Source of the DNA: Chytriomyces cf. hyalinus JEL632
Taxonomy: Eukaryota > Chytridiomycota > Chytridiomycetes > Chytridiales > Chytriomycetaceae
Length of the DNA stretch: 64,000 bases
Direction of reading: 5' to 3'
Assembly (NCBI GenBank): GCA_025435555.1
Contig: JAIWWG010000025.1
Span: forward strand, 186,001-250,000
Shown: positions 2,625 to 62,276 of the stretch, one piece after another
Numbering within the stretch: the stretch's first letter is position 1
How the letters are laid out: the number at the start of each line of letters is the position of its first letter
Program-made: the position numbers and the translations under genes
The notes under the pieces: generated by a model
The model's database searches: none
Told to the model about the DNA's origin: nothing
Seen by the model: only the letters and a program-made list of their open reading frames with translations

Positions 2625-5486
2625 ATGCACTTCACTCAAATCTTTGCACTGGCCTTCCTGGCTTCGAACGCCATGGCTACCTGTAAGCAACACACCGTCT
2701 AGTCACTGATCCCACAAAAGCAACTAAGCAAATCCATTTACAAAAAAACAGACCAACGTGGGAAGGGATGCACACTGCGCGGCAACTTCAACATTAAGGA
2801 AGACGACGTTGTTGTCCTGGCCAAGAAACACAACTTGGACTCTTCCCTCTGCGGAAACATCATTTCGGACATTGCCGATATCGACAACGACGACTTTGTG
2901 ACTGGCTGCAAAAAGATTGTGGCTAAACGTGGATGCCAGCTCAAGGACGTTTACGAAGTTGCCGGGTCGTGCAGAGACCGGTTCTTTGGCGCAAAGTCAC
3001 ACCCCCTCAACAAAGTCTACAGCACCATCTTCGACTTGGGTGTGAAGGGCCAGCTCTCAATCAACGTATCTGGCGGCCTCGGTGTTTCTATCGGTGGCGG
3101 TGTTTCTATCGGAGGCGGTGTTTCCATTGGAGGCGGCGTTTCTGGAGGGGTCACTGTGGGTGCCGGTGGCTACAGCGGTCTGGTTCTTCAAGCCGGAGGA
3201 ATCTTTGACAGCGGTGTCCGAATCATCGAAGACGACTGGTTCACCACTGTCATCAGTCAGTACAAGTTTGGAATCGACCTCAACACATCCAAGTCAATTG
3301 TCGCCGAGATTTCTGTTCTGAACGGAGACTTTTTGACTGGATGCAAAACGATTGCTACCAAGTTCAACTGCTCAGTTGAAACAGTCATTACAATCGGAAG
3401 CGAATGCAGCAAAAAGTGGTTTCTCCAGGGAAGCAAGTTCTACAACGTTTTCAACAGTGTGGCCACACTCAGCACTCAAGTGGGAATCAACATTGGCGGG
3501 TCTGTTGGAGTTAGCATTGGGGGCTCATCCGGCGGTGTCGTGACTGGTGGTGTCGTGACTGGCGGTAGCGTCGGTCTGACCATCGGCGCCGTGGTCATTC
3601 CAGACACCTTCTTCACCACAATCATTCGCACCAACGGCTGGAAATTCTCCCTTGACGTTGGCAAGCAGATCGTGGTTGATATTTCCGCCCTGACAGGCAA
3701 CTGGATTGATGGCTGCAAGAGCATTGCGACAAAGTACAGCGTCTCTTTGGATATCGTTATCGCCATTGGTTCCGCGTGTACCAAGCAATACTTTGTGCAG
3801 GGCACACCTCTCTTCAACGTTTTCAACAGTGTTGCCACAATCAATACGCAAGGCACGATTGGAGGCGGAGTTAGCATTGGTGGTGGAGTAAGCATTGGAG
3901 GTGGCATCGGAGGTTCAGTCGGCCTGAGCATCGGAAACGGAGGTATCTTTGACGGCTCCAGCATTCTTATTGGAGACGACTGGTTCGACGGAATCATCCC
4001 ACAGTTCAAACTCGACGTGGACCGCAACCGTTGCAAAAATATTGTGACCGACATTTCCGTCATCAAGGGAAACTGGCTTTCCGAGTGCCAAAGACTCGCA
4101 GTCAAGCACAACTGCAAACTGAGCACAATCATTACTCTGGGTTCAGAATGCAGCAAGAGATGGTTCGTGCAAGGCAACAAGTTCTACAGCATCTTCAACA
4201 GCGTAGCAACTGTCAACACACAAGTCGGAGTCTCGGTTGGAGGCGGCATTACGTACGGGAACGGCATCGTCTTTGGAAACGGAGGAATCTTTTACAATGG
4301 CAACATTTTCATCCAAGACAGCTGGATCGACGGCATCGTCAACCAGTACCGTCTCGGACTCTCGCGTGACAGTTGCAAGAAAATCATTGTCGACATTTCT
4401 GGCTTGAAGGGAAACTGGCAAAGCGCAGCCCAGAGTCTTTCGATTAAGTACAACTGCCGTCTGGATCAGATTATCACAATCGGAACTCAGTGCGGAACCA
4501 AGTGGTTCACTCAAGGGCACGAATTTTACGGCCCCTTCAACCAAATCTCGACACTGAACGTTCAGACGGGCGGTCAAATTACAATTGGAGGAAGCAGTTC
4601 CAATGCATGCGTCTTCAAGAGTGGACAGATTTACGTTGGTGGACAAGTTGTCGTGGATGGAAGCTGGATTAGCTCCAACGCGGGCGGCTATGGCTTGAGC
4701 GTTGACCAATTCGGAACTCTCATCTATGACCTGACGCAGCTTCCTCGTGGTGACACTTACCACGAACAGTGCAGAAGACTGGCAGCGAACTACAAGGTGT
4801 GTTCTTGTAAATATTGAATCTTTTTATTTTCAAATGACTGAGATATATCCTTTACTCAGATCCAAGCCATCAAAGTGGTGCAGTTGACCGGCTCATGCAA
4901 GAGCCGTTTCACAAAGTTTGTGGATTACTACAGAACATTTGACGTGATTTCGGGATACGACAGTTACTTTGGCGTTTCTGCGGCTGCTTCAATCTCAATC
5001 AACGCCGCCGTCTCCGTGAAATTGGAGACTATTGGCCAATTGTTTGGTATCAACAGCAAGCAGTGCTTCACCAACATTTTCGGACGTCTCAAGATTGGTG
5101 GTGGACTCAGCTACCGTGTGGCACTGGATGAAACTCAAAACTCAGTTGCCGACGTTTTTGCACGCATTGCTGACGCTGCAAACAGCACAGAGCCAGTTGA
5201 CCCTACCAACACAATCATGCGAATTGCCAGTGAAGCAGATGTCCCGCCTGGACTTGTGGCCGAAGTCTCTTCATCGATTCTGGATTCAATGATTAGTGAA
5301 AACAGCACGGATGTTTCTAGCTTCAAGAATATTGACTCGTTGGCTGCGGTTGTTCTCAACACGACTGTTTCCGCGGACGCGCAATTGCCCGCTGAGGATG
5401 AATCGCAGGCAAACCAGGCGATTTCTGGGGCCAGAGGCGTCACGGTTGCTGTTGCGATAATGCTTCTGAGTTCGTTGCTTGTGTGA
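2625..5486 (+). CDS. Secreted GPI-anchored protein with six Cys repeats and Gly-rich linkers
   Basis: Three exons (2625-2682, 2752-4796, 4860-5486) give about 909 residues. The ATG at 2625 opens a clear signal peptide (MHFTQIFALAFLASNAMA). The body holds six related modules of about 90-100 residues. Their core is C..IA.K.nC....i.iGs.C...wF.QG..fY..FNsvAT, with four recurring cysteines, and they are joined by linkers made of short G-V-S-I-G-G-G repeats. The C-terminus is a hydrophobic stretch (VTVAVAIMLLSSLLV) after small residues, which fits a GPI signal. I do not recognise the repeat family. Secretion, anchoring and low-complexity spacers suggest a cell-wall or adhesin-like surface protein, but that is inference. 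An AATAAA lies at 5525, 39 bp after the stop. Confidence 0.85.
2764..4960 (+). repeat. Six tandem protein modules encoded in the surface protein gene
   Basis: Approximate module positions are 2764-3060, 3199-3490, 3595-3860, 3945-4230, 4288-4575 and 4606-4960, the last split by intron 4797-4859. Modules 2-5 align best and share FNSVAT or FNQIST near their ends. Modules 1 and 6 are more diverged. The linkers at 3070-3175, 3480-3590, 3855-3945 and 4215-4285 carry GGC/GGA-rich units coding GVSIGGG-type repeats. Confidence 0.8.
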
Positions 5487-8386: not shown

Positions 8387-9929
8387 ATGAGCAAATTGGA
8401 AATGACCCCACCAACAACGCCCACACGGCCAACCCCAGTGCGCAACCAGAGCCGCAACTGGTTTGGTGCGAGCAGCGACGACATGCTCTGGAGAAGCAGC
8501 AGCCGTGGAGACAGCGCTCTCGATCGTGACCACACCCGCTCAGTCTCGCCCCAGTCCACCGTCCCCTCCCACTCACACCAGGTCCATGAAATTCAGAATA
8601 ATTCGGGCTCGCACTGGGATGATCGTGAGTATATGCTTGTCTTTATCAGCTTCTTTTTTGTCTGCCTTGGCTCATCCGTCCGAACAGTCCTGCGCTTCCA
8701 TCAATCGGTTATCCCCCGCATCTTCCTCTACCTGACTGCCATAACACTCTGGGCATCTCTAGTCGCTGTTTTTGCCCTCACTCAGAGCGACTTTGCTTTC
8801 CTGAACAAGCTCCCCGTGTCCACCATCTTTGTTGTTACCACCGGTGTGGTGCTGTCGCTATTGCTGTCATTCCGACTCTCGACTGCTTAGTGAGTACATA
8901 AGTTTAGATATGGAGGGATCAATGCTGCCATGGAGTATTTACATGTTTGTGACACCTGCCAGCGATCGCTACTGGGAAGGCCGTAAATTCTGGTCAACAA
9001 TCCGCTTCCAGACTATAAACATTGCGCGCCATATTCAAATCAACATACGGGCAAAATCCGACTCTGAAAAGACCCAAAAAGGTCACGCACTGAGCTTGCT
9101 TACGGGGTTTTCGGTCGCCGTAAAGCACTGGCTGCGAAAAGAATTCCTTCCCATCTATGATGATCTTGCACCTCATATCGATTCAATGACTTTTCTTCTT
9201 GCGAATCCGGCACCTATCTCATCTCCGAAAGACTCAAAACTCGCATCTTCCAGTCCGCAAGCTTTGCCAATAACTTGCATCATCCCTTTAGACGCCCTCA
9301 ACCACTTGTTTTCTTATATCCTGTCCACTAATCAATCCACGTTCCAAATGCTTGCTGCCTTCTCTTCTCTCGAAGATGCATTCACCCAACTTGAACGCAT
9401 TGGTGGAACACCCATCCCAGCAACCTATGCAATCACGCTCGACCAAGTTCTCGTCCTGTATCTCCTGGCATTACCCTTCCAACTAGTCACTGTATTGGGA
9501 TGGTCGAGCATACCTGCGACGACTCTTGCTGCTCTTATTATGGTTGGACTGGCGGAGATTTCTCAAAACATTGAGAACCCGTTTGTTGAGACTTTCCACA
9601 ACTTGCCGCTGGACTCGTACTGTGAGCATGTTGACGTATGCATGGAATATCTTGGTTCTATGGATTTTGACGGTGAAACAGAACTGCGGTGGGGTGAGGC
9701 GGATGAGATTTTAGATGAGGATGAGCAAGTGCGGTATGGAGGAGGTTTGGCGAAGAATGTCACGCAAGTCCGGGTAGAAAAGAAGGCAGAAACTGTCGCG
9801 TTGAATGGAACAGGCATTGTTGTGGCTGATGGAGGTGCTATCGTTACGGATCCTGTACCTGTCGTTATCGTGGGGGATCACGATGAGGTCCACAAGAAAA
9901 GTTCAAGAGAGGTTCGGATGACTGCTTGA
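8387..9929 (+). CDS. Bestrophin-like (UPF0187/RFP-TM) anion channel
   Basis: Three exons (8387-8624, 8688-8889, 8963-9929) code 468 residues. The first intron is a multiple of three, so the frame reads through it. Removing it restores the family's LLRFHQSVIPRI, which matches the bacterial and fungal 'l..f.GSVlpRI' signature. Further signatures are YDRYWEGRKFW (after intron 2), HAL...AVKHWLR and ENPFVETFHNLPLD, the last matching the conserved 'iEnPFg.d.nDLpl' block near the pore. There are four hydrophobic stretches. The N-terminus is Ser/Pro/Thr-rich and probably cytosolic. Members are chloride or other anion channels in the plasma membrane or organelles; location is not shown here. An AATAAA is at about 9978. 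Confidence 0.85.
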
Positions 9930-10321: not shown

Positions 10322-13300
10322 ATGATGGGTCTGGGACACAGTGAACTCGCGCAGCTTATAAGGACCATGATATCCGAGAGCCGGAAGGAGAGAGAGGCAG
10401 AGGCAGAGAATGGGCACGACGATGAAGCGACATGTGGAGAACGGATGGATCTGCAGACAGCTGAGCCCCATCTGCCCATTGCGCTCGTGACCCGTCTTGT
10501 GGAACGCGCATTCGCTACGAACCTCATTCACAGCATTCTGGCTCCAAATACTTCTCCTTCAAGAAGACATGTTAAACGCACGTTGGCGCACGTGGCATTT
10601 TTTCAGAATCAGGTCGGTTTGCTGATGGTTGCAAACATTTACTTCCTTTATTTACATCATGAATTCTTCTCCTTCCTCTTTTTTGTTGTGACCACGCTCA
10701 TACAGTTCATGACGTGTAATCCGCTGGCCACGCTATCCGTCGATGAATGTCACCAACTTTTGGCATCCGCCATCGAGGCAACTATTCAGTCACCCACCTC
10801 GATCTCACCAGCGCCTGCGATTTTATCTGATTCCACATCACATTCACCCGATTCATCTCTTCACTCCGCTGCATTACCCTCTTCGCGCATTCCGCGTCCA
10901 GTCTCTTCGAATCTTACTGGAACTCAACCTGCACACAATTCAAGGTCCTCAAGCCCTCCGTTAAAGAACTTGATCTCATCACCGTCGAAAGTACGTGTCT
11001 GTCAAATATTCTTATTCTACCTGTTCTTGGGGTTGGAAACTTAAGTTCAAAATCCCGCCCCCCAAAAAAACAACCTTCAGACTGCGGATACTCTTTGGAA
11101 CAGCAGTCCTCCGCGATCATTTTTCCGCCCAGAAGTTGCTTCTGACGCCGATGATTTGCATCAGCATACCCCTTTCGGTGGGCTTGTCGGCTACCACACA
11201 AGTTCCAAAACGAACCCGTTTTCGGGTGATCGCTCGATCTCGGAACCAATTCCACCTCACTTCCAGCAACCATCAGCAAGATCAGTCTCAGTTCCTGAAA
11301 CGCCGTATTCTCAACTGAACGATCAACATCAACATCCGTCCGATACATGGTACACTCCGCCGGGCCGAACACAGTTGTTTTTTGAGTCTCAGTCTGTCCA
11401 CAAGCATCTGCAATATTCCGGCAACAATAATCAGCTTTCTGAAGGAGACCGTTCATCTCCTGCATTGTTCGATAAACACAATTTGCATGCACCATCTGAT
11501 CTCGTCGGAGAACAATCGCGGCAGCAACAACCGGACGTGTTCTACACTCCTGTCGGAACTCCGTCAACAGCTGTAGTAGGTACACCTGCTGGGGGCACAA
11601 CGAATGCATATCCATTATTTGCATCGGGCGGCGTTCCTCGCGGAATGGCAGCTGCATCTCCCGCATTAAAACTGAAAATGTCTGCGGCTGCGCAAAGAAT
11701 ATCGGGTGTATCTGGGCCACCTATGAAAAGCCCAAGCTCGCGCGGGCCGAAAATGAGACAACAGCAGCAAGCGGCTACCCGGTCTAGTCAGTTATTCCAC
11801 TCGTTACTGAATGAAACCGCACCTCCGAGCATGCTTCTTGAAGACGATGATGACGATGCGGCTGTTGAATCTTCAAGCAGATCTCCTCTTGCAGGGATGG
11901 GGAGCAAAAATCCATTCCAACAGCGGCAAGATTCCATTCAGGAAAATTGCGAAGAATATGAGGAAGACACTGAAGATTCAAGACTTCTGTGTGCTGAAGA
12001 CATGCCGCTTTATTTGGAGCAGCTTAGTAGCCCCATTACTGGCGCACAATCGCTTCATGGTGATGAAGATGCCGGTGAAGTCCATGAAGCTGAAGGAACT
12101 GAAAATGACATCAATGGGTCTGTAGACTGCACTGGTTTTGTGCTGTTGGAAGAATCGGAGGGCAGACAAAACTCTGGCAGCTTGGGCTTGCGCAGCAGCA
12201 CGGGTTTCTTCCAACAACGGGCAAGTTCGGCAGCATGTAGCATTGACGACAAATCGCAGTTTGATGGCGAATTGCTTGTGGCGAGGAGAAGCCAAAGTAG
12301 CCAGAATAATGGGAGTGTAATGAAACATATGACCCTCGCACAAGAGATGGAGCATCAGAGTAGGAATGCGGAAGCTTGGGAAGGGAATGGGGTAGGTCTT
12401 GGTGGTGTGTTCGGTGCCAATGAAGTCATGACCAAAGAGGTGAGCTGGAGGACATTTGAACCAATTCTGCGGATTTTTGACTGTCTCTCTCTTTTAAGGA
12501 ATTTGATCTCAACACCATTATTACGAATCTTCGTCGTCAACTGCACACTATGGGTAAAAAGTACGAAACACTGAAGCAAGAGAACGAATCGCGGATTGAA
12601 CAGTTGACGGGCGATGTGAAATCACTTCGCAATGCGAAGAGAAATATGAGCCATAGGCAAGGAAGTCTTGAGAGTGGGATGTCTATGTCGGAATCAGAGA
12701 ATGGCGGCGGCTGTGGTAGTCTGAAACTGGGAGGAAGCACATCGAGTGCATCTGGCACATCTCTGGGAGTCGCTTTGAGGAAGCCTCATGCTGAAGATCT
12801 TGACTATGTAAGCCGATACACTTTTATGTGCTGAGTTAAGATGTGCTGACACGTGCTGTGAACTATTTCAGCTGGAAAGCGAAGTGCATCGTTTGAACAA
12901 GGAATTGACCTCTTCCCGACAACTGAACAAAAAAGTTCGCTCGCAATTGGATAACCGAAACGATGAGCTTCGAAAACAATCGGATGAAATGGATGAAAAA
13001 GATACTTTTATCCGCAATTTGGAATTTCGCCTTGAAGTGTTCGACAAGGAAGTTAAAAAGGTGTGTCATCTTTTGCTGTTTGAGCTGTTTTTTTCTTCTT
13101 TGACTCATTCTTTGAACATTCTTTTCACGCACTAGAAAACCGATGAAAGTTCTTCTCTAGTGCAACTCGTCCATCAATTACAAAATGACTTGGTTCTCAG
13201 CGCAACGGCTGTGGCAAATCTGACGGATGACAACAAACGGCTTTCGGGAGAAAACTTGAGCCTTAAAAAAAATATGAAGGAAATTATGACGAGTTTGAAC

Positions 13301-15673
13301 GTCGAGGAAGATGAAGATTCCCCAGCCTTGAACGCCATAGTATGTTATCCTGGAGATGTAAGTGTCAAAAGTAAATGATAGCCCGAGATTCGCTCCCTTG
13401 TTAATGACTTTCCCCATAAAATCCAGAGTTTGCTGCACGAACTTGAAAATAGCGGTCATCCAAACACTAGCACGCTCGATTCTTCAAGCTCTTTCCTCGC
13501 ATCTAAGCAAGGCGTCATCACACGCGAAGAAGGGATGCAAACCGAACCTCCTAAAACCTGCACAATGGGCAGTCAGCATAAAGTGGAAGAGTGGACAAAG
13601 TCTCAAGGAACTCAGGGCTCATCTGCCATTCTGACTGTTGATACGGGAATTCAAGCGGAAGAAAAAATGCGTGTGGCCGTCATCCAGACAAGCCCGGTTG
13701 ATGTGGTTCATGTGGCTGTAGGCGCCAAAATAGTGGAAACGAGTCGCGAAATTAGTGTCCAAACTGAAAATCTTGCATTCTTGGAGGAGAGCGAGCACGT
13801 TTGTGTGCTTGATTTCCAGCCCGTGATCACTTCGGTGTATGGCGTTCAAACAGACAGCCACGAGGCTGCTACAAAAGAGGTTCAGACAGAAAATGTGCGT
13901 ACTGAGGGTTCAGATGTAGGAACCGACGTTTGCGATTTGATTTGCGGTGACACTGTCTCTGTCCAGACAGAAATGTTTGAGACCGTGGACTTGGGAAGCC
14001 AGACCGTCTGGGAATATGAATCGTGTGGAGTCCAAGTTGGAGTCGAATCTGTGTCGTGCGAAGTGCAGACGGTTGTGAATGAGATGACATCTTCTGTGTC
14101 TCAAACAGAAGTGTTTAGCTTTAAGAGCATCTGGGCGCAGACCGACGGAACAGAAATTACCTCGACTAAAGTTCAAACTGAAACGGGACCACCTGCGGCA
14201 GTGTCCGTGCAAACTGAAACTGTTGAGGTTATCCAAATGGAGTGTCAAACCGATGCACGGATCGAAATCAGCAGTTTTTCTCAAACCGACGAGCCAAAGC
14301 GCAATTCGCAGCTGCTTCAGACAGATGCGCCATGTTTAATCGAGACCCCTGTTCAAACCAATGGTGCGCCGCCAGTAGTGGTCGCGTCTATGCAAACAGA
14401 TTCAGGGCATGCTGCTATTTCATGCGGTGTCCAGGTTGGAAGCGTTGTTGACGTGGAGCAGGAAGGTCGTGGTGTTCAAACGGAGTCTGTTGCCTGTGTG
14501 ACAAAAGCGTTTGGAATCCTTACGCGTGGGTGGGGTGTGCAGACAAAGTTGCGGTACGAGGATCTGGATCTGTTGGAATCCGACGTTGACCGCTTTGAAG
14601 CGCGCTGTTTGGAACTTGAAGATCAGTTAAAGGCTTTGGACGGCGAAGGTAAAATTTTCAATTGTCCATCTGCCTTGATTGAGACTTATCAACTTCTTGG
14701 ATGATTTCCAGGTGAACAAATCACTCATTTGAAAGAAGAGTTGGTCGCACTTGAAGGCACTTGTGTAAGGCGTTTTTCATTGCCTTTCTTATCCTGATTC
14801 GTCTGACCGTCGTATCTTCTTTTTACAAAGTTTGAACTGCGCGCTCAACTTGCTTCCGCCGAAGAAAGCGTTTCCGATGTCCAACGGCAATTCAAACTTC
14901 GAAAGCATTTTGACTCCGAACGTGACCGATGGATTCAAAAGCTTAAAACGCAGGTTCAAGATTACGAAACTGTGCTGGGTGATGCTCGAAAAGGTGAGTC
15001 TTCATTAATTTGGATTTACTTTTGTTCTAAAAGTTCTGTGAAATCTTCAGTGGTTGAGGATCGGATGGCGGTCGAAAGCACGTTGTTGACTCGACTTCAA
15101 AAACTCGAATCTATGTGGAAGGAAGCATGCGAACAGCTTAAACATTCGGAGCAGGCTCGTCATGCCGCAGAAGAGGTTTTAAAAAATCCGAAAATCTTTC
15201 GATGAATTTTCCTAAGAAACCGTCCCTTTAGAAACTGGCCATGCAAAATATGCTGGACGTCTCATTAGCCACGTTGAACTCTCAAGTCATCAACGGTAAA
15301 CATTGCAGAAAAGCAAGATATTACTCCATACTGATACATGTTTACTCTCACAGATATACCTGGCGGTATTGAAGATTGGACAGATGACGAATTCAGTCGG
15401 CAATTAGTTCCTGACTCAAAATCTGTCCGAAAATGCGTTTCTTATTCGAGATCCGTTCTTGGTTACGCTGTTCCTGCCTATGCCGTGGTTGCACTCCTCG
15501 CGATTGCTTTATGGAGCCAGTATTCATTCAAGGCACTTCCCTGCACCGACAGTGTGATTCTATCAGACAGAAGGGATGTCGGGTTTATTGAGCGGATTCT
15601 TGATCCAGTTGTGCAACTGGAAGTATTTTTAAGGAATCCGAATTTGGACGGAAGAGATGTGATGCCGCAATGA
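10322..15673 (+). CDS. Tail-anchored coiled-coil protein with LC8-like VQT(E/D) motif array
   Basis: Twelve exons give about 1533 residues (10322-10612, 10706-10990, 11081-12439, 12499-12807, 12872-13060, 13136-13357, 13427-14648, 14712-14764, 14831-14993, 15051-15175, 15232-15295, 15354-15673). The parts in order are an unrecognised N-terminus, a long Ser/Pro/Gln-rich low-complexity region, coiled coil (12.5-13.3 kb), an array of about 21 QT motifs (13.5-14.55 kb), more coiled coil, one membrane helix (AVPAYAVVALLAIALW) and a tail of about 55 residues. The QT motifs (GVQTD, SVQTE, GVQVG) look like LC8/DYNLL dynein light-chain binding sites. I infer a membrane-anchored, LC8-stiffened scaffold at the nuclear envelope, basal body or an organelle. 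Two calls are uncertain: intron 10613-10705 (93 nt, in frame, donor gtcggt) and the donor at 13340 or 13358. I recognise no orthologue. Confidence 0.75.
13532..14548 (+). repeat. Array of ~21 LC8-like QT motifs, mostly 12-residue period
   Basis: Within one exon, 19 QT dipeptides and two QV variants (GVQVG) occur in about 339 residues, from GMQTE (13532) to GVQTK (14534). Between 13841 and about 14401 the distance from one Q to the next is usually exactly 12 residues (36 bp), occasionally 11 or 13. The preferred context is V-Q-T-(E/D). The residues between motifs are not conserved, so only the motif and its spacing are kept. That pattern points to selection for evenly spaced binding sites rather than recent DNA duplication. 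Confidence 0.85.
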
Positions 15674-15877: not shown

Positions 15878-16795
15878 TCATTCTTCGTCGTCGCTGCTGC
15901 TGTCAGCCGGCCTCCACCGATCCTCCTCAGCCACTTCATCGCTGTCATCCTCCGTCTCCATTCCATAATCGTCATACCTGACAAGCGCATGACTGATGAG
16001 CACTTTCATCCGTTTGTTTTTTGCCAGCTTGCCCTTGACATCCTTCATAGTCAGTCGCGTCTTCCCAAGAAGCAAGTCTTCTAAAATTCGCAGATTTGAA
16101 AGTTCCTGCGGTAAAGGTCCTACAAGATCATTTGCGGCCAAATCCAGCATCAGGAGTTTCGTGAGACGTCCGATTGATTTTGGTACAAGTCCGGACAATT
16201 TGTTGTTGTCGAGCGACAAGGTTTCAAGCGAGATCAAGCCGCCAATTTGTTCTGGGATCGGTCCAACGAGCCGATTATGACTTAAAATGAGCTCGCGTAA
16301 ACATACTAGATTGCCAATTTCGACTGGCAAAGGCCCTTCGATCGAGTTATGCGCGAGGTTGAGCACAGCCAAATTTGTAAGCTGCCCCATCTCCGAAGGG
16401 ATACATCCGCCAATGTGATTATCAGCCAGAATGACAATTCGAAGAGGCAGTTTCCCAATTGCCTTTGGAATTTGACCCGTAAGGGGAGGATCCGGCGACC
16501 ATTCAAGCTCCTCAATGACACCCAAGCCAAACGCCAAAAACGCGTTCTGGAAACTGACGGGCCAACTAAACCACAACCGATCGAATGCGCTCACAGAGTG
16601 GTGCTCGGTGCGCATGCTTTGGGTGATGGCGCGGTTTAGGCATTGTCGTGCAAAGTCGGGGTGTCGAAGACACTCATCGATGCGCTTGCAAAGTCGTCGG
16701 TATCGAAGCACCTGGTCAGGACCTATCCAACTGAATAATGCGCACAGGACTTCGGTTGGGAGTTTGTTTTGCAGAATTGGTGCGGTGTCGTTCAT
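15878..16795 (-). CDS. F-box-like protein with plant-type leucine-rich repeats
   Basis: Single exon, 305 residues. The first ATG is at 16795; the frame extends two non-ATG codons further. The N-terminus (LPTEVLCALFSWIGPDQVLR) fits an F-box, the Skp1-binding motif of SCF ubiquitin ligases. Residues about 105-255 carry six or so repeats of the L..L.L..N.l.G.iP..ig.L type, best known from plant receptor kinases (for example NNKLSGLVPKSIGRLTKL). The C-terminus is acidic and Ser/Asp-rich. No membrane helix or kinase is present. The likely role is substrate capture for ubiquitination, as an inference from domain order. The F-box call is less certain than the LRR. Confidence 0.75.
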   Translation of the reverse strand: MNDTAPILQNKLPTEVLCALFSWIGPDQVLRYRRLCKRIDECLRHPDFARQCLNRAITQSMRTEHHSVSAFDRLWFSWPVSFQNAFLAFGLGVIEELEWSPDPPLTGQIPKAIGKLPLRIVILADNHIGGCIPSEMGQLTNLAVLNLAHNSIEGPLPVEIGNLVCLRELILSHNRLVGPIPEQIGGLISLETLSLDNNKLSGLVPKSIGRLTKLLMLDLAANDLVGPLPQELSNLRILEDLLLGKTRLTMKDVKGKLAKNKRMKVLISHALVRYDDYGMETEDDSDEVAEEDRWRPADSSSDDEE

Positions 16796-16811
16796 CAACA
16801 ATTTTTACGTG

Positions 16812-51925: not shown

Positions 51926-54590
51926 TCAGTCCCTGGGAATGATGCTCAAAACTTGATAAATCATGACCTGCATTTCATAATTCATTGAGTATCAAAGAAG
52001 CAACAGACAAGACAGAGTTAACGTAACAAACCTCATTCTTCTTTCCTTTAAACCGTCTCGGTCCAACGGGTTCTACGGTCACCCAGTCTTTCACAGCCAA
52101 ATACGTGTCCTCGGAAATCAAAACTTGGTTACTCTGGGCAGCATCACACATGCGGGATGCGGTATTCACGGCGTCCCCAATGCACGTGTACTCAAGCCTC
52201 TGAGCGCACCCAATGAATCCCGCCAGTAGATTTCCTTCAATACAAAAAGAGATGAGAAGGAAGAAACGAAAACTCACGGAAAAATAAATTTGGTTTGTTT
52301 TTTGCTCACCCGTATTGACTCCCACTCCAACCCGAATCGGCTCTTTTCCGCGCCGCTCACGCTCTTCATTCATTTCACGCATTGTTTCAATGTATTCCAT
52401 GGCAGTCGCAACGCTACGATACTCTGAATCGACTTCCTCATCCAAAGTCCCAAACACGGCCATCAGTGCGTCACCAATGTACTTGTCCACAATCCCTTCA
52501 TACTTGAAGACAACGCGCACAAGCTGAAAATTAAAGAAAATGAAACGGTAGGGTTGGTAAGCAAGGGCAAACAAAGGGGTAACTAATAAACTTAGAAAAA
52601 TGCTTCCTCACTCGCTCAAAATAGTCATTCAGCATGTTCACGACCTCGCCCGGACTCAGACTTTCACTTAGATTGGTAAACCCGCGAATATCGACAAAGA
52701 CAATTGTGCCAACCATCTCTTTACCACTGCGCTGAATAAGTCCACCTCGATCCGCCATTTTCTCTACAACGTGGGGAGGCAAGAAACGAGACAGTTGTTC
52801 AGTGATTCGCGCCTTTGTTTCCACTTCTTGCATGAGGATCATATTTTCAATGGCCATCGCCGTTTGATTCGAAATGGCCTTCACAAGACTGAGATCTTTA
52901 GAGCTGAAGGAGGAATTGAGTTTGTCTCGAGAATCGAGATGAAGGATACCGTGAACCTTTTGCAAAACGAAGATAAAAAAAGTGACAGGAAAGGAAGGTT
53001 ACAATTGAAAAACGAACACTGAAAAAAAAACAAAATCTAACCTGGGCATGCGCAATCAGGGGCACACAAATCACACTTCGAATCTGACCGTACCGCACAC
53101 TTGCGGCCATCCCCAAACTCGGATCTTCCGTCGCATCCCTAGAGATTAAACTGATTCTCGTGTCAAACACGCGCCTCAGAATCGTACTACTGAGTAGAAT
53201 CTCCTTCCCCTCCTGCGCACTCCCTGGACGCACTTTGACGTAATGTGTGACAAGGTTTCCCGTCGTTTCATCCACTAGCAACACCACCCCGCGGTCAATC
53301 GGCAAAATCTCAAACATCAAGTCCAGCGATTTCGCCAAAAGCGGTGTGATATCGTTCGTTAAGCTCATTTTACTGAGCTCATACGCAAGCCGCAACTTTT
53401 CATAGTCTTCCTTCATCGTATTTCCGTCCGTCACTTCACTGAGGGGTCTAAAGTCAATGTCTTCATCCTGAATTTCGGCGCTGATGGTGACCGTTTCTTC
53501 ATATTTACTTTCACTGGGAAGAATGGTGACGAGCTTCACATTGTCTTCGGCTTCTTTTGTTAGATACATGCTTTGGTGACGGCTCGCGCGATTGAGAGAT
53601 GGCATAGTGTCGTACCAGCTGGCGCGAGTGGGGGGTCCAGATGGTCCAGCACTTGCAGGAGTCACATCCCCAGCCATATGCTCGTCAATAAAAGTGAGGA
53701 CAATAATGCCAAGGGCAACTTTGTCCCCATCTTGGAGACGGTGCAAAGTATCAGGAATAATATTGATGGCATTCACCCGAACGCCGTTTGCTGAATTCTT
53801 GTCTTTGATATAATAAGCATGACGGTCGCTGGGGAATAGGTGATCATAGATTTAAAACAGATGGGCAGAGACACAAGGGGGTGGAGATAGAAAATACCCA
53901 TCAATCTGCTTTTTGATGACGCAGGCATGGTACTTTGATATTTTTGGGTCGTTGAGGACTATGTGGTTGTTGTTGTTTCTGCCGATCGTGGTTTCGTCCC
54001 TCATGAGAGTGAAATGGTTTTTGCCACCAAAGGAGGTGTAATTAAAGAACTCTGCCGGTTGCAAGACACTTTTTGCTGTAACTGAGGATCTACAGCGAGA
54101 GGGAATGAACACAAGTAAGGAGATGAGAATGCGTGCAATATATATACGGGCAAGAATACCTGCGTGGCGTCATGTGCATGACAATCTTTGACTGGTGCTT
54201 GTTCAGGGCGACGGCAGATGACGCCATCGTGGGTGGCTCTCTCTCAAGTCCCTCGGCCGCTGAAGAAGCCGTCGAAGGTCTCCGTGCGTCCCGTTCCCTT
54301 GTGTTGTCCTTGTTGTTGTATCCATTGTTGAGCTCCCTACCCCCAGCGCGGACGCCCAAGTCGCGCCTGTCCCCCCTGTCCCCCCTGTCTCCTCTGTCCC
54401 TGTCAATCCTGTCTCTCTCCCGTTCTCTGTCTCTGTACTCCGACGTCGGGTACTGTGGCGGTGTGGCTGCCCCGCCGTACGGATCGCGGTCTCTGTCCCT
54501 GTCCCGTTCCCGCTCACGATCGCGGTCTCTGTCTCGTTCGCGGGTTGTTCGGACGCTGATGTTGTCGTTGCTGGCGCGTCTCGCTTCCAT
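51926..54590 (-). CDS. FHA-GAF class III adenylate cyclase
   Basis: Seven exons (54590-54160, 54089-53898, 53828-53042, 52956-52612, 52523-52310, 52234-52032, 51967-51926) give 737 residues. The N-terminal 100 residues are dominated by RD/RE repeats. An FHA domain follows (TTIGRNNNNHIVLNDPKISK, YYIKDKNSANGVRVN), then a GAF domain (PIDRGVVLLVDETTGNLV; GILHLDSRD), then a class III cyclase. Catalytic features are VFVDIRGFT and YIGDALMAVFG (the two metal Asp), Lys in VDKYIGD, Thr in LEYTCIGD and N/R in AVNTASRM. The Lys/Thr pair indicates ATP, so it should make cAMP. No membrane helix is present, so it is soluble. FHA reads phospho-Thr and GAF may bind a small ligand. This order is known in some bacteria and flagellates but is not the usual fungal Cyr1 form. 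Confidence 0.9.
54350..54545 (-). repeat. Arg-Asp/Arg-Glu coding repeat at the cyclase N-terminus
   Basis: On the minus strand this part of exon 1 codes alternating R and D/E (for example RDRDRERERDRDRDRDP, later RDRGDRGDRGDRRD). The plus strand shows repeated gtctctgtccctgtc-like units. Mixed-charge RD/RE tracts tend to bind RNA or phase separate. Repeat number may vary between strains. Confidence 0.8.
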
Positions 54591-59394: not shown

Positions 59395-62276
59395 ATGGAT
59401 CTCCCGGCCACTTGTCCGTCGCGTGATAGTCAAAGCCTAAGTTCTGTGGCTCTCGATGCCAGCGATCCTGCCTTGGCCGCTTTAACCGTCAAAGACAAGG
59501 ATACCTTCATTGCGACGCTGGAGAATCGACTCGAAGACTTGCAGGCGCAGCACAAGGTTCTTGCCACTCAACTTGGTTGACGCGATTTCCTAACCTGCGT
59601 CAAAACATACAACCCATTTTCAGGCAGCCACGGAAGAAGCCGCAGCCGATCTAGCAAAGAAAAACGCGCTTATTGATAAAATGAGAATCAAACTGAACCG
59701 CTATGAGTTTGCTCTGAAGGAAGCTGTCTTGTTTCTGTCAAAGCCAATGCACACATACGATGCCTGGCTGAATAACAAAAACTCGGAAGCGAACAATACG
59801 TTGGTGGTCACGGCTATCCAAGGAGCGATCAATTCCGCCAATACGGTGGTGTATGGAGGCCATGCGCCTTCAAATTCCGCGTCTTCAACCTCCGCAGTTG
59901 CAGTTGTCTCAGTTCCGCTGCAGGAACATTCTCCCAACAGCCATGGCAACGGCGCCAACTCCCCAAACTTGAGCCATCCGAACAACAATTCATCACGCTC
60001 CCGAAATGGTTCCAATATTCCACCCAGCAGCAGCACGAAAGGAAAGCAACAAGTTCCTGCAATTGTTGCGAATCAAACGTCCAACACCAGCCTTGCTTCT
60101 TTAGCCATCAACACGGATATCTATGGAACTTCACAACCTTCATCACCTCAAATTCCGTCCCACCATCAAGTGAAAGGTCCTACAAATTTGGAGATTCACT
60201 GCCTTGAGTGCATGCGGCTTTCTTTAAACTATCTCAAGAATGCTCAGGCGTCGATAGATTCCATTGAAAACGATGATGAGATCTCTCTCCCACCAGCGGA
60301 GCCGCTGTTTACAGATCCTTTCCGTATTCTGGACATCAGACCACTGGATGAAGCACTGAGAAATCTTGAATCTTCCCTCAACCCGACCGCTTCATCTCCC
60401 GTAGGCGCAGGACCACCTTGTAAGTTGATAAAATCCAGCTTCATTTTCTTCTGTTTCTGCAATGTCTGACACTCAAAACACTGTTTCAGCAATCAGTTCG
60501 TCCTTAGCACCCAACAAAAGAGCCGACCCCCACAGCCGACAAGGATCCATATCATCCACAGCTTCATCCTCCAACCCACTTGTATCCAGTGCCGTAGCTA
60601 AATCTCGTGCTCTGGCTTTTGCTCGTCTCAACAGCCCTGAACGCCGACACAGCCATCACATTACAACCACAGCCCTCTTTCGCGCTGCCACTCTTCAAAG
60701 CCCAACCTCACACACTATGGACGACCCAAACAATCCTCTATTTGACGACGGCGACATATCCAACACACCCGCCATCAGCAATTCAAACGTCAGCTCTAAT
60801 CAAGGCAAGCACAGTAACAGCGCAAGCAACCAAAAGTCGGACCAAAATGATTCAAACAACACAAATACTGTTGCACCAGTAAAGCGGCCGTGTCCGAATT
60901 GCCGCGACTATATGCTCCAACTTAACCACGCAGGCGACACCATCGAAACGCTTCGAATCGATATTAAAACTCTGGCAAACCAGCTTGAGGAAGAACATGC
61001 AATGCGAGACCGCACTCAACTCGCAAAAGACATTCTGGATCAAGAGCTTGAAGAACTGACTGCACAATTGTTTGACCAAGCTAACAAGATGGTGATTGAG
61101 GAAGCACGGATGCGGGATGCGCTAGAGTGCAGTAACCGGGACCTAAAGGGCGAGTTGAAAGCGCTGGTATCAAGGTGCGAAGGGCGGGAGGATGAGTTGA
61201 AGGATTTAAAGAGAAGCTTGAAGGCATTAGAGAAGGCGAAGACACGGAGTTCTGTGTTATCGCTGGTTGGTCACAGCAGTACTGGCGGAGCTATTTCCAG
61301 GCATGGGTCATTGTCCGCAGTGAACATTCCTGGGAACTTGTTACCAAAAAGCGGATTCACTTCGCACACATACTATGGCATCATGGGAATTAACCCATCA
61401 AACAAGCAATCCTGGCTTATTCCTGTAGACGGAATTCTCCTCTCAGAATTTCAGGATCACATTCGACAGGTGACTCACCCAGTTCGATCAACTTGTTTGT
61501 AATGATTCTGTTTCGTGCGCCAGGTCACGTCGACGATCGTTTCTCAGACGAACCCAAACCCTGCTCCTGCGACCACTGCTTACGAAACCCTTTTCTTCAA
61601 ACGCTGTGTCGCGGAAGATATCGAGCCATGCTTGTTCGCAGCGTATCCCGCACTCATTCCAGGAAGCGGTGGAATCTTTTCAACTGCGAAACTTTCAAAA
61701 GGCGGCATCAACGGAATGGTTCCGATGAAAAAACGAATTCTTGACTGCATCCTCAAATCTCAGATTGAGAGTTTTTCCATTGCCGAGAATCCCGCCTCCC
61801 CTGCGTCAATTGGTGGGGCGCAATCGCCGACAACATCTCTTTCAGGCTTGACAGCTACATCAACCTCCCCAACATCTCCTATTCTCATCCCGAAAACCAA
61901 ATGCATTTCATGTACGTTAACGAGGGAGTGCGAATACCGACTGCGTTTCACGGACAAGAATCCGGCAGAATTTTTCCAAGTGTGCAGTTTTTGCCATGAC
62001 CGAGTTGCGTGCGTCCTGGACTTTTACGCGTTTATGGGACATTTGCGACAAGGAATTGTCGGAGTTGGAGGCGGTGCTTCAGGGAACTGGGCCGGCAAAC
62101 AGATGCAGCAACAAGGCGTTTCTCTTGTTGGACTGTTTCGGCACGCGCTGTGGCTGAAGAGGAGGATGGCTGTCGCCCGAGTTGGTAATTGCGGACTGTT
62201 TGAGCCAGAGATGATGAGTGCGGTGGATCGAAAGGCGGACGGGGAATGGGAAAAGCTGATGCATATTGTGCAGTGA
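59395..62276 (+). CDS. SEC2: Sec2/Rabin8-type Rab GEF
   Basis: Four exons (59395-59556, 59624-60419, 60490-61469, 61524-62276) give 896 residues. The Sec2 coiled-coil domain is clear: LANQLEEEHAMRDRTQLAKD and ELEELTAQLFDQANKMVIEE, the segment that opens the Rab nucleotide pocket. A Cys-containing C-terminal domain follows (LFFKRCVAEDIEPCLF; CISCTLTRECEYRL; VCSFCHDRV), as in animal Rabin8/RAB3IL1. Long Ser/Asn-rich linkers join them, and the N-terminus adds a coiled coil. Sec2 activates Sec4 for exocytosis in yeast; Rabin8 activates Rab8 at cilia with BBSome help. A BBS4-like gene lies in the same window. The donor at 59557 is GTTCTT. Confidence 0.88.

Follow-up and report, generated by a model that had tools for sequence, protein, structure and literature searches.

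A gene encoding a long and regular array of putative LC8-binding motifs was identified in the window, the whole stretch of 64,000 nucleotides of the Chytriomyces cf. hyalinus JEL632 genome analysed here. The motifs lie on a lattice of 12-residue steps that is conserved among relatives, the protein has a predicted architecture of long helices on both sides of a disordered array, and the same genome contains an LC8 gene. With a probability of about 0.7, the protein is read here as a membrane-anchored coiled-coil scaffold, occurring in four genera of the Chytriomycetaceae, whose disordered lattice would dock LC8 and organise it into an LC8 ladder.

The motif array and its lattice

Translation of positions 13532-14548 gave 339 residues free of stop codons with 19 QT and 2 QV dipeptides, exactly as counted in the sequence-only reading that was followed up here. 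In 100,000 shuffles of the array residues the number of QT never exceeded 13, and none reached 19. The distances from one Q to the next (n = 20) were, in order, 49, 25, 29, 12, 27, 12, 11, 11, eight times 12, 13, 13, 15 and 21 residues. Exactly 12 residues separated 10 of the 20 pairs, and 14 of the 20 gaps were of 11-13 residues. When 21 sites were placed at random in 335 residues, the highest number of 11-13-residue gaps in 200,000 trials was 9, and 14 was not reached. The spacing had been described as nearly always 12; this holds from approximately 13847 to 14393, except for one 27-residue gap that harbours a degenerate copy of the motif, VGTD.

Degenerate lattice positions were located by a scan with a matrix derived from the array's own 21 sites, for which reason matrix scores within the Chytriomyces arrays are circular. 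The degenerate positions SQH, TQG and IQA fill the 49-residue gap from intact site 917 to intact site 966 in steps of 12, 13, 13 and 11 residues, and at least 25 positions of the lattice are recognisable when intact (n = 21) and degenerate ones are taken together. Since the degenerate copies are in phase, the underlying lattice seems to be longer than the 21 intact sites.

No tandem repeat was detected at the array on the DNA level by Tandem Repeats Finder (minimum score 50). Both Gln codons are used at the 21 sites, and all four Thr codons are found among the 19 QT. The varied codons and the lack of a DNA repeat make the array unlike a recent DNA repeat, and its regularity is probably old. 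A protein search of the genome (37.8 Mb in 242 contigs) with exon 7, which scored four candidates and addressed similar sequences only, matched exon 7 itself alone and revealed no second array.

Gene model and predicted architecture

The features of the gene are listed in Table 1. An alternative splice donor, GTAAGT at 13359 instead of GTATGT at 13340, would give a protein of 1,533 aa, which is six residues longer. This is the donor implied by the annotated C. hyalinus relative P0001, and the array is unaffected by the choice. Both candidate donors follow the coding region of the first coiled coil and precede that of the array. Apart from the junction of exons 6 and 7 and some small indels, the splice model matched P0001 and P0002, two annotated proteins of C. 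hyalinus.

Table 1. Coordinates in the window of the array gene and of the features of its product.
Feature	Position	Strand	Basis or remark
Whole gene, 12 exons, 1,527 aa	10322..15673	+	Hand-built from donor and acceptor sites
Exon 1, initial part of the N-terminal domain	10322..10612	+	Weakly conserved in Obelidium; absent from P0005 as annotated
Exons 4-6, predicted first coiled coil, rich in heptads at residues 638-708 and 743-880	12499..13339	+	Simple heptad scan
Exon 7, holding the entire array	13427..14648	+	Disorder predicted up to residue 376 of 407
Array of 19 QT and 2 QV LC8-type motifs	13532..14548	+	Q at protein residues 917-1251
Degenerate lattice positions SQH 929, TQG 942, IQA 955	13574..13657	+	Matrix scan
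Degenerate lattice position VGTD, residue 1044, within the 27-residue gap	13916..13927	+	Matrix scan
Densest block, 14 sites Q1059-Q1215, 13 consecutive gaps of 11-13 residues	13964..14437	+	Site and gap lists
End of exon 7 to exon 11, predicted second coiled coil, rich in heptads at residues 1253-1419	14549..15295	+	Heptad scan
Single hydrophobic transmembrane-like helix VLGYAVPAYAVVALLAIAL, residues 1456-1474	15455..15511	+	Kyte-Doolittle
53-residue C-terminal tail, presumed lumenal	15512..15670	+	Charge counts, alignment

From the N-terminus onwards, the predicted order of the protein is an N-terminal domain, a disordered part, a long coiled coil, the disordered array, a second coiled coil, a transmembrane-like helix and the tail. 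No Pfam match was found in the N-terminal region encoded by exon 1. A 28-residue stretch inside the array (residues 1085-1112) also passed the heptad scan.

AlphaFold2 modelling of exon 7 (4 sequences) gave a pLDDT below 50 for residues 1-376, with values of 22-33 across the first 370 residues, and displayed neither strand nor solenoid. In the model of the Rhizoclosmatium protein P0005 (5 sequences), helices 220-277, 288-417 and 764-916 flank a disordered QT region. The first two correspond to the first coiled coil of the window protein, the third is one predicted helix of 153 residues at the position of the second coiled coil, and a predicted helix of low pLDDT (residues 963-986) sits at the transmembrane position. 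Both models were built on shallow alignments (5 and 4 sequences) and are of low confidence overall (mean pLDDT 45.8 for P0005 and 29.6 for exon 7), and were used for the layout of helices and disorder alone. On this basis, the array is predicted to be disordered and to lie between long helices.

Other features were observed elsewhere in the window. Just upstream of the array gene, an open frame at 8805-9929 (+) matched Pfam PF25539, the family of bacterial/fungal bestrophins, with E 3e-38, and convergent with the array gene, 15878-16804 (-) encodes a protein of leucine-rich repeats whose start is F-box-like at a score below that family's cut-off. A 704-residue open frame at 2703-4817 (+) contained several Cys/Trp-containing repeats of approximately 115 residues joined by Gly-rich GVSIGG linkers, with 18-bp DNA repeats at 3080 and 3858; no Pfam match was obtained for it at E up to 0.01. 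An open frame at 60432-61502 (+) harboured a Sec2p GDP/GTP exchange factor domain (E 4e-16), and at 52898-53851 (-) an FHA domain was matched over the cut-off (E 8e-5) together with GAF-like matches below it.

Relatives and conservation of the array

Residues 660-1527 of the window protein were 96% and 90% identical to P0001 and P0002, respectively, which points to a Chytriomyces-like chytrid as the source. Beyond these two C. hyalinus proteins, one relative each was identified in Obelidium (P0003), Siphonaria (P0004, a partial record that its source flags as UNVERIFIED_CONTAM) and Rhizoclosmatium (P0005), and all four genera belong to the Chytriomycetaceae. The searches for relatives were word-limited, two of them scoring the 7,986 and 7,991 candidates with most shared words. 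When residues 1322-1450 of P0001 served as the query for homologues, the two C. hyalinus proteins alone were returned. The Obelidium, Siphonaria and Rhizoclosmatium relatives all had a QT region between two coils, followed by a hydrophobic helix. Alignment of the N-terminal domain was weak in Obelidium and partial in Siphonaria, and P0005 in its annotated form lacks this domain.

The window protein, P0001 and P0002 contained 19 QT and 2 QV apiece, and their arrays were aligned with zero gap columns. P0002 retained 20 of the 21 window sites, one QV being replaced by QA, and had one additional QV off the lattice. Among the three Chytriomyces proteins, residues at positions 0 (the Q) and +1 were variable in 1/42 cases, compared to 49/306 in the rest of the array (hypergeometric P 0.009). 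The wider core from -1 to +2 was less sharply conserved (7/84 variable, P 0.047), with mostly conservative changes, and relative to P0001 alone it was no more conserved than the spacers (4/84 variable in the core and 10/180 in the spacers).

The corresponding region contained 8 QT and 1 QV in Obelidium, 10 QT in Siphonaria, and 8 QT and 1 QV in Rhizoclosmatium. Five QT pairs were invariant in the alignment of P0001-P0005, in which the aligner tends to stack such pairs. In the other genera the QT sites were frequently two lattice steps apart, and half-step sequences were found midway between QT 24-25 residues apart: VETD in Obelidium (787) and Rhizoclosmatium (659), and SQS in Siphonaria (697). 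By the array-derived matrix the top lag was 12 in P0003 and P0005 and 21 in P0004. When plain residue identity was used instead, P0003, P0004 and P0005 had their strongest lags at 24, 28 and 39, respectively, and lag 12 ranked third, outside the top five and second in the same order; by this measure lag 12 came first in the three Chytriomyces proteins alone. In Obelidium P0003, residues 799-871 approximately, we noticed a longer unit (VDLFVGVERV or similar) repeated around the QT sites, which suggests that a larger segment was duplicated locally.

Agreement with LC8 motifs and the LC8 gene

Positions -4, -2, -1 and +2 are those named for LC8 motifs (PMC6607443, PMC3078936). The residues flanking the 21 sites played no part in finding these and were compared with shuffles of the non-QT residues; seven rules were tried, and the P values are uncorrected. 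Position -1 was T, V or I at 13/21 sites (expected 5.8, P 0.0008) and position +2 was D, E or P at 14/21 (expected 4.4, reached in 0/20,000 shuffles). Small residues (G/A/S) were found at -2 in 11/21 sites (expected 5.2, P 0.005) and D or S at -4 in 9/21 (expected 3.5, P 0.003). As a population, although not at every site, the motifs conform to the LC8 anchor type [T/V/I]-Q-[T/V]-[D/E] with a polar residue at -4 and a small one at -2. K/R at -3 was not enriched in the shuffle test (2/21 versus 1.4 expected), and a small residue occupied this position in 9/21 sites. K/R or a large residue at -3 is described as a preference and not a requirement among the LC8 preferences around the anchor (PMC6607443). 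The anchors were mostly VQT, with V at -1 in 12/21 sites and T in none, whereas the commonest LC8 anchor is TQT. In Obelidium the rules for -1, +2 and -2 reached P 0.05; in Siphonaria and Rhizoclosmatium only that for -2 did, with +2 at 0.057 and 0.052. One edge site each was omitted from these tests in Obelidium and Siphonaria.

The quality of the individual sites was assessed by rules hand-coded from section 9 of PMC6607443, in which a hydrophobic residue at +2, an aromatic one at -2, a large hydrophobic one at -4 and an internal proline count as unfavourable. None of these four features was present in 13/21 sites, and 8/21 had one (hydrophobic +2, n = 2; aromatic -2, n = 2; large hydrophobic -4, n = 3; internal proline, n = 1). 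With a small residue at -3 included, 9/21 sites were clean, 7 had one and 5 had two unfavourable features. The figure of about 21 LC8 sites in the sequence-only reading is therefore correct as a count of motifs and an upper estimate as a count of sites, the clean ones being 13/21 or 9/21 by the coded rules. Many anchor-containing peptides in Table 1 of PMC6607443 do not bind LC8, so not all 21 need to bind alone, and rescue of weak sites by their neighbours is suggested in PMC6607443 and PMC12057147. LC8 motifs have been reported in disordered regions, often near coiled coils or long helices (PMC3078936). The array block is strongly acidic, with a net charge of -33 across 356 residues, which counts against the docking-lattice reading.

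A canonical LC8 is encoded in the same genome (G000:C221, L001). It was identical in 85/89 residues, with 4 differing, to the solved dynein light chain 2 of 1pwj, a mammalian protein. Owing to this near-identity, the motif rules established for animal LC8 should carry over, and an LC8 able to bind such motifs would be present in the organism. A second, divergent exon match of the LC8 family (L002, G000:C199:533183-533332) contained one TAG inside the matched stretch; it is possibly a flagellar light chain, with the TAG perhaps in an intron. The dynein intermediate-chain control PF11540 was uninformative, as it gave no match here or in 14 control genomes. The assignment of the motifs to the LC8 type is well supported by the flanking preferences, the conservation at 0 and +1, the predicted disorder and the canonical LC8 of the genome; we infer binding and judge the protein to be a real multivalent LC8 client.

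The C-terminal helix and family matches

In Kyte-Doolittle averages over 19 residues, the hydrophobic helix ranked first in the protein, at 2.25. The 15 residues before it contained 4 Lys/Arg and 1 Asp/Glu, and those after it 1 and 1. The basic residues before the helix suggest a cytosolic position for the array and a lumenal one for the tail; the nuclear envelope, the ER and the Golgi are each possible as the membrane. An aligned Glu-Arg in the tail was common to the window protein and its Obelidium relative.

KASH/LINC proteins and golgins have long coiled coils followed by a C-terminal transmembrane helix, and the predicted layout of the chytrid protein resembles theirs in both respects. 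KASH peptides have a proline-rich end, unlike the tail of the window protein, which ends in DVMPQ. No KASH or golgin Pfam match was found in P0001-P0003 (E up to 5) or in the window protein (E up to 1). SUN-domain exons were present in the same genome.

Two other identities were considered and rejected. ATG16 was matched in Pfam below the cut-off, with E 4e-5 for the window protein, approximately 1e-5 for P0001 and P0002 and none in P0003, and the spectrin repeats of nesprin-1 were likewise matched below the cut-off, with E 0.008 for the window protein, 0.29-0.7 for P0001 and P0002 and none in P0003. In our judgement, both are likely to be cross-matches between coiled coils. A sequence search of the PDB returned nothing for exon 7 (E up to 10) or for P0001 or P0003 (E up to 0.1).

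Proposed mechanism and alternative explanations

From these features we infer LC8 binding, an in-register parallel pairing of chains and a rod, together with the membrane topology, cellular location and role of the protein, which may be depicted as follows: Two parallel chains would be joined by the coiled coils flanking the disordered array, and LC8 dimers would clamp the paired strands at successive sites 12 residues apart. The flexible stretch of 340 residues would thereby be turned into a ladder of rungs and rails with up to 21 LC8 dimers, of which approximately 14 rungs would be contiguous and span approximately 55 nm. Such a ladder could determine how far, and how rigidly, the distal N-terminal part is held from the membrane end, and could be tuned by the supply or phosphorylation of LC8.

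An extended residue measures 0.33 nm, and 12 of them would cover approximately 4 nm. As this is close to the diameter of an LC8 bead in EM, approximately 4 nm (PMC5963919), adjacent dimers would nearly touch. The 12-residue period leaves linkers of 4 residues between the 8-residue motifs. For ASCIZ, a 3-residue linker was reported to give heterogeneous complexes and linkers of 6-9 residues homogeneous ones (PMC10046861), and the chytrid linker falls between the two. A stiff LC8-stacked rod is plausible, and the interpretation given in the sequence-only reading is on the whole partly supported. The further proposal that this is the longest LC8 ladder, with about 14 contiguous and up to 21 dimers in a stiff membrane-tether rod of 50-100 nm, and with a rung number tuned between genera by gain and loss of Q-T on a fixed 12-residue lattice, is put forward tentatively, at somewhat less than even odds. 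The other genera, with their 9-10 QT/QV, indicate that a long close-packed rod would be unneeded for the basic role of the family. If the proposal is true, LC8 would act as a length-setting structural polymer rather than as a dimerisation clip.

LC8 might instead bind as a fluctuating, partly occupied ensemble, with the array serving as a sink or sensor for LC8, or as a platform for avidity, and with weak sites rescued by their neighbours. ASCIZ offers a precedent, as its 7-11 sites are mostly at low occupancy and 2-4 beads are seen in EM (PMC5963919), and the mixed quality of the chytrid sites (8/21 with one of the four unfavourable features, 12/21 with at least one when small -3 is included) and the uneven gaps of 15-49 residues at both ends of the array are in line with it. 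However, the central 14 sites are spaced near-constantly and carry zero indels in the three Chytriomyces proteins, whereas the homologues of ASCIZ keep a mixed long and short spacing (PMC10046861). A membrane anchor and flanking coiled coils would, moreover, be more tether-like than regulator-like. An ensemble of this kind is considered unlikely, with a chance that is still appreciable.

A 12-residue repeat could also fold upon itself or bind another protein. Beta-solenoids with 12-residue coils exist, and the composition of the array is beta-prone (0.43 V/I/T/S/Y/F) besides having the fitting period. AlphaFold2 gave no strand, although its pLDDT of 22-33 with 4 sequences makes this a weak argument; the gaps of 11, 13, 15, 21 and 25-29 residues would break the register of a solenoid, and D/E at +2 and a polar -4 suit LC8, so that self-folding or another partner appears very improbable. 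The slightest chance is given to the array being a functionless byproduct of an old tandem duplication. The strong difference in array length among genera would be expected from it, but positions 0 and +1 are nearly invariant while other array residues vary, five QT pairs are aligned in P0001-P0005 (which the aligner may favour), and the varied codons, with no DNA repeat reported, already disfavour it. The membrane-anchored scaffold with an LC8 docking lattice is therefore preferred.

Comparison with known LC8 systems

The closest described counterpart of a stiff LC8 rod is that of yeast Nup159, in which five LC8 (Dyn2) dimers are stacked (PMC12017986, PMC5963919). Its LC8 motifs also lie in a disordered segment adjoining a coiled coil, but are five in number compared to the approximately 21 predicted in the chytrid protein. 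By description, Nup159 is an FG-repeat nucleoporin, whereas the chytrid protein has predicted coiled coils on both sides of the array and a C-terminal transmembrane-like helix. Chica, Bassoon, 53BP1 and LCA5 share the presence of several LC8 motifs, with 2-4 sites each, far below the chytrid number, and a 12-residue lattice is not among the features given in the available descriptions of them.

Human ASCIZ/ATMIN, which likewise has many LC8 motifs, was in 2018 stated to have the most by far, with 11 verified sites (PMC5963919), and 16 are predicted in it by LC8Pred (PMC10046861). The description of the chytrid array as unusually long thus stands, given its approximately 21 predicted sites, and no array larger than that of ASCIZ was seen in the open-licence literature, which was represented chiefly by titles and the beginnings of abstracts. 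ASCIZ belongs to the zinc-finger transcription factors, its sites are unevenly spaced, both short and long, and sparsely occupied, and its complex with LC8 is described as a heterogeneous ensemble (PMC5963919), in contrast to the chytrid protein, whose array is regular in its core and which is predicted to be membrane-anchored.

The chytrid scaffold would point to LC8 serving a structural function at a membrane of zoosporic fungi. Its relatives with 9-10 QT/QV constitute a ready-made evolutionary series, and one of these genera, Rhizoclosmatium, is under development as a system for centriole/MTOC remodelling (PMC12659703). With approximately twice the number of sites of ASCIZ predicted at a near-constant spacing, the array would allow a direct test of the effect of spacing, and of whether LC8 forms a rod, as in Nup159, or an ensemble, as in ASCIZ.
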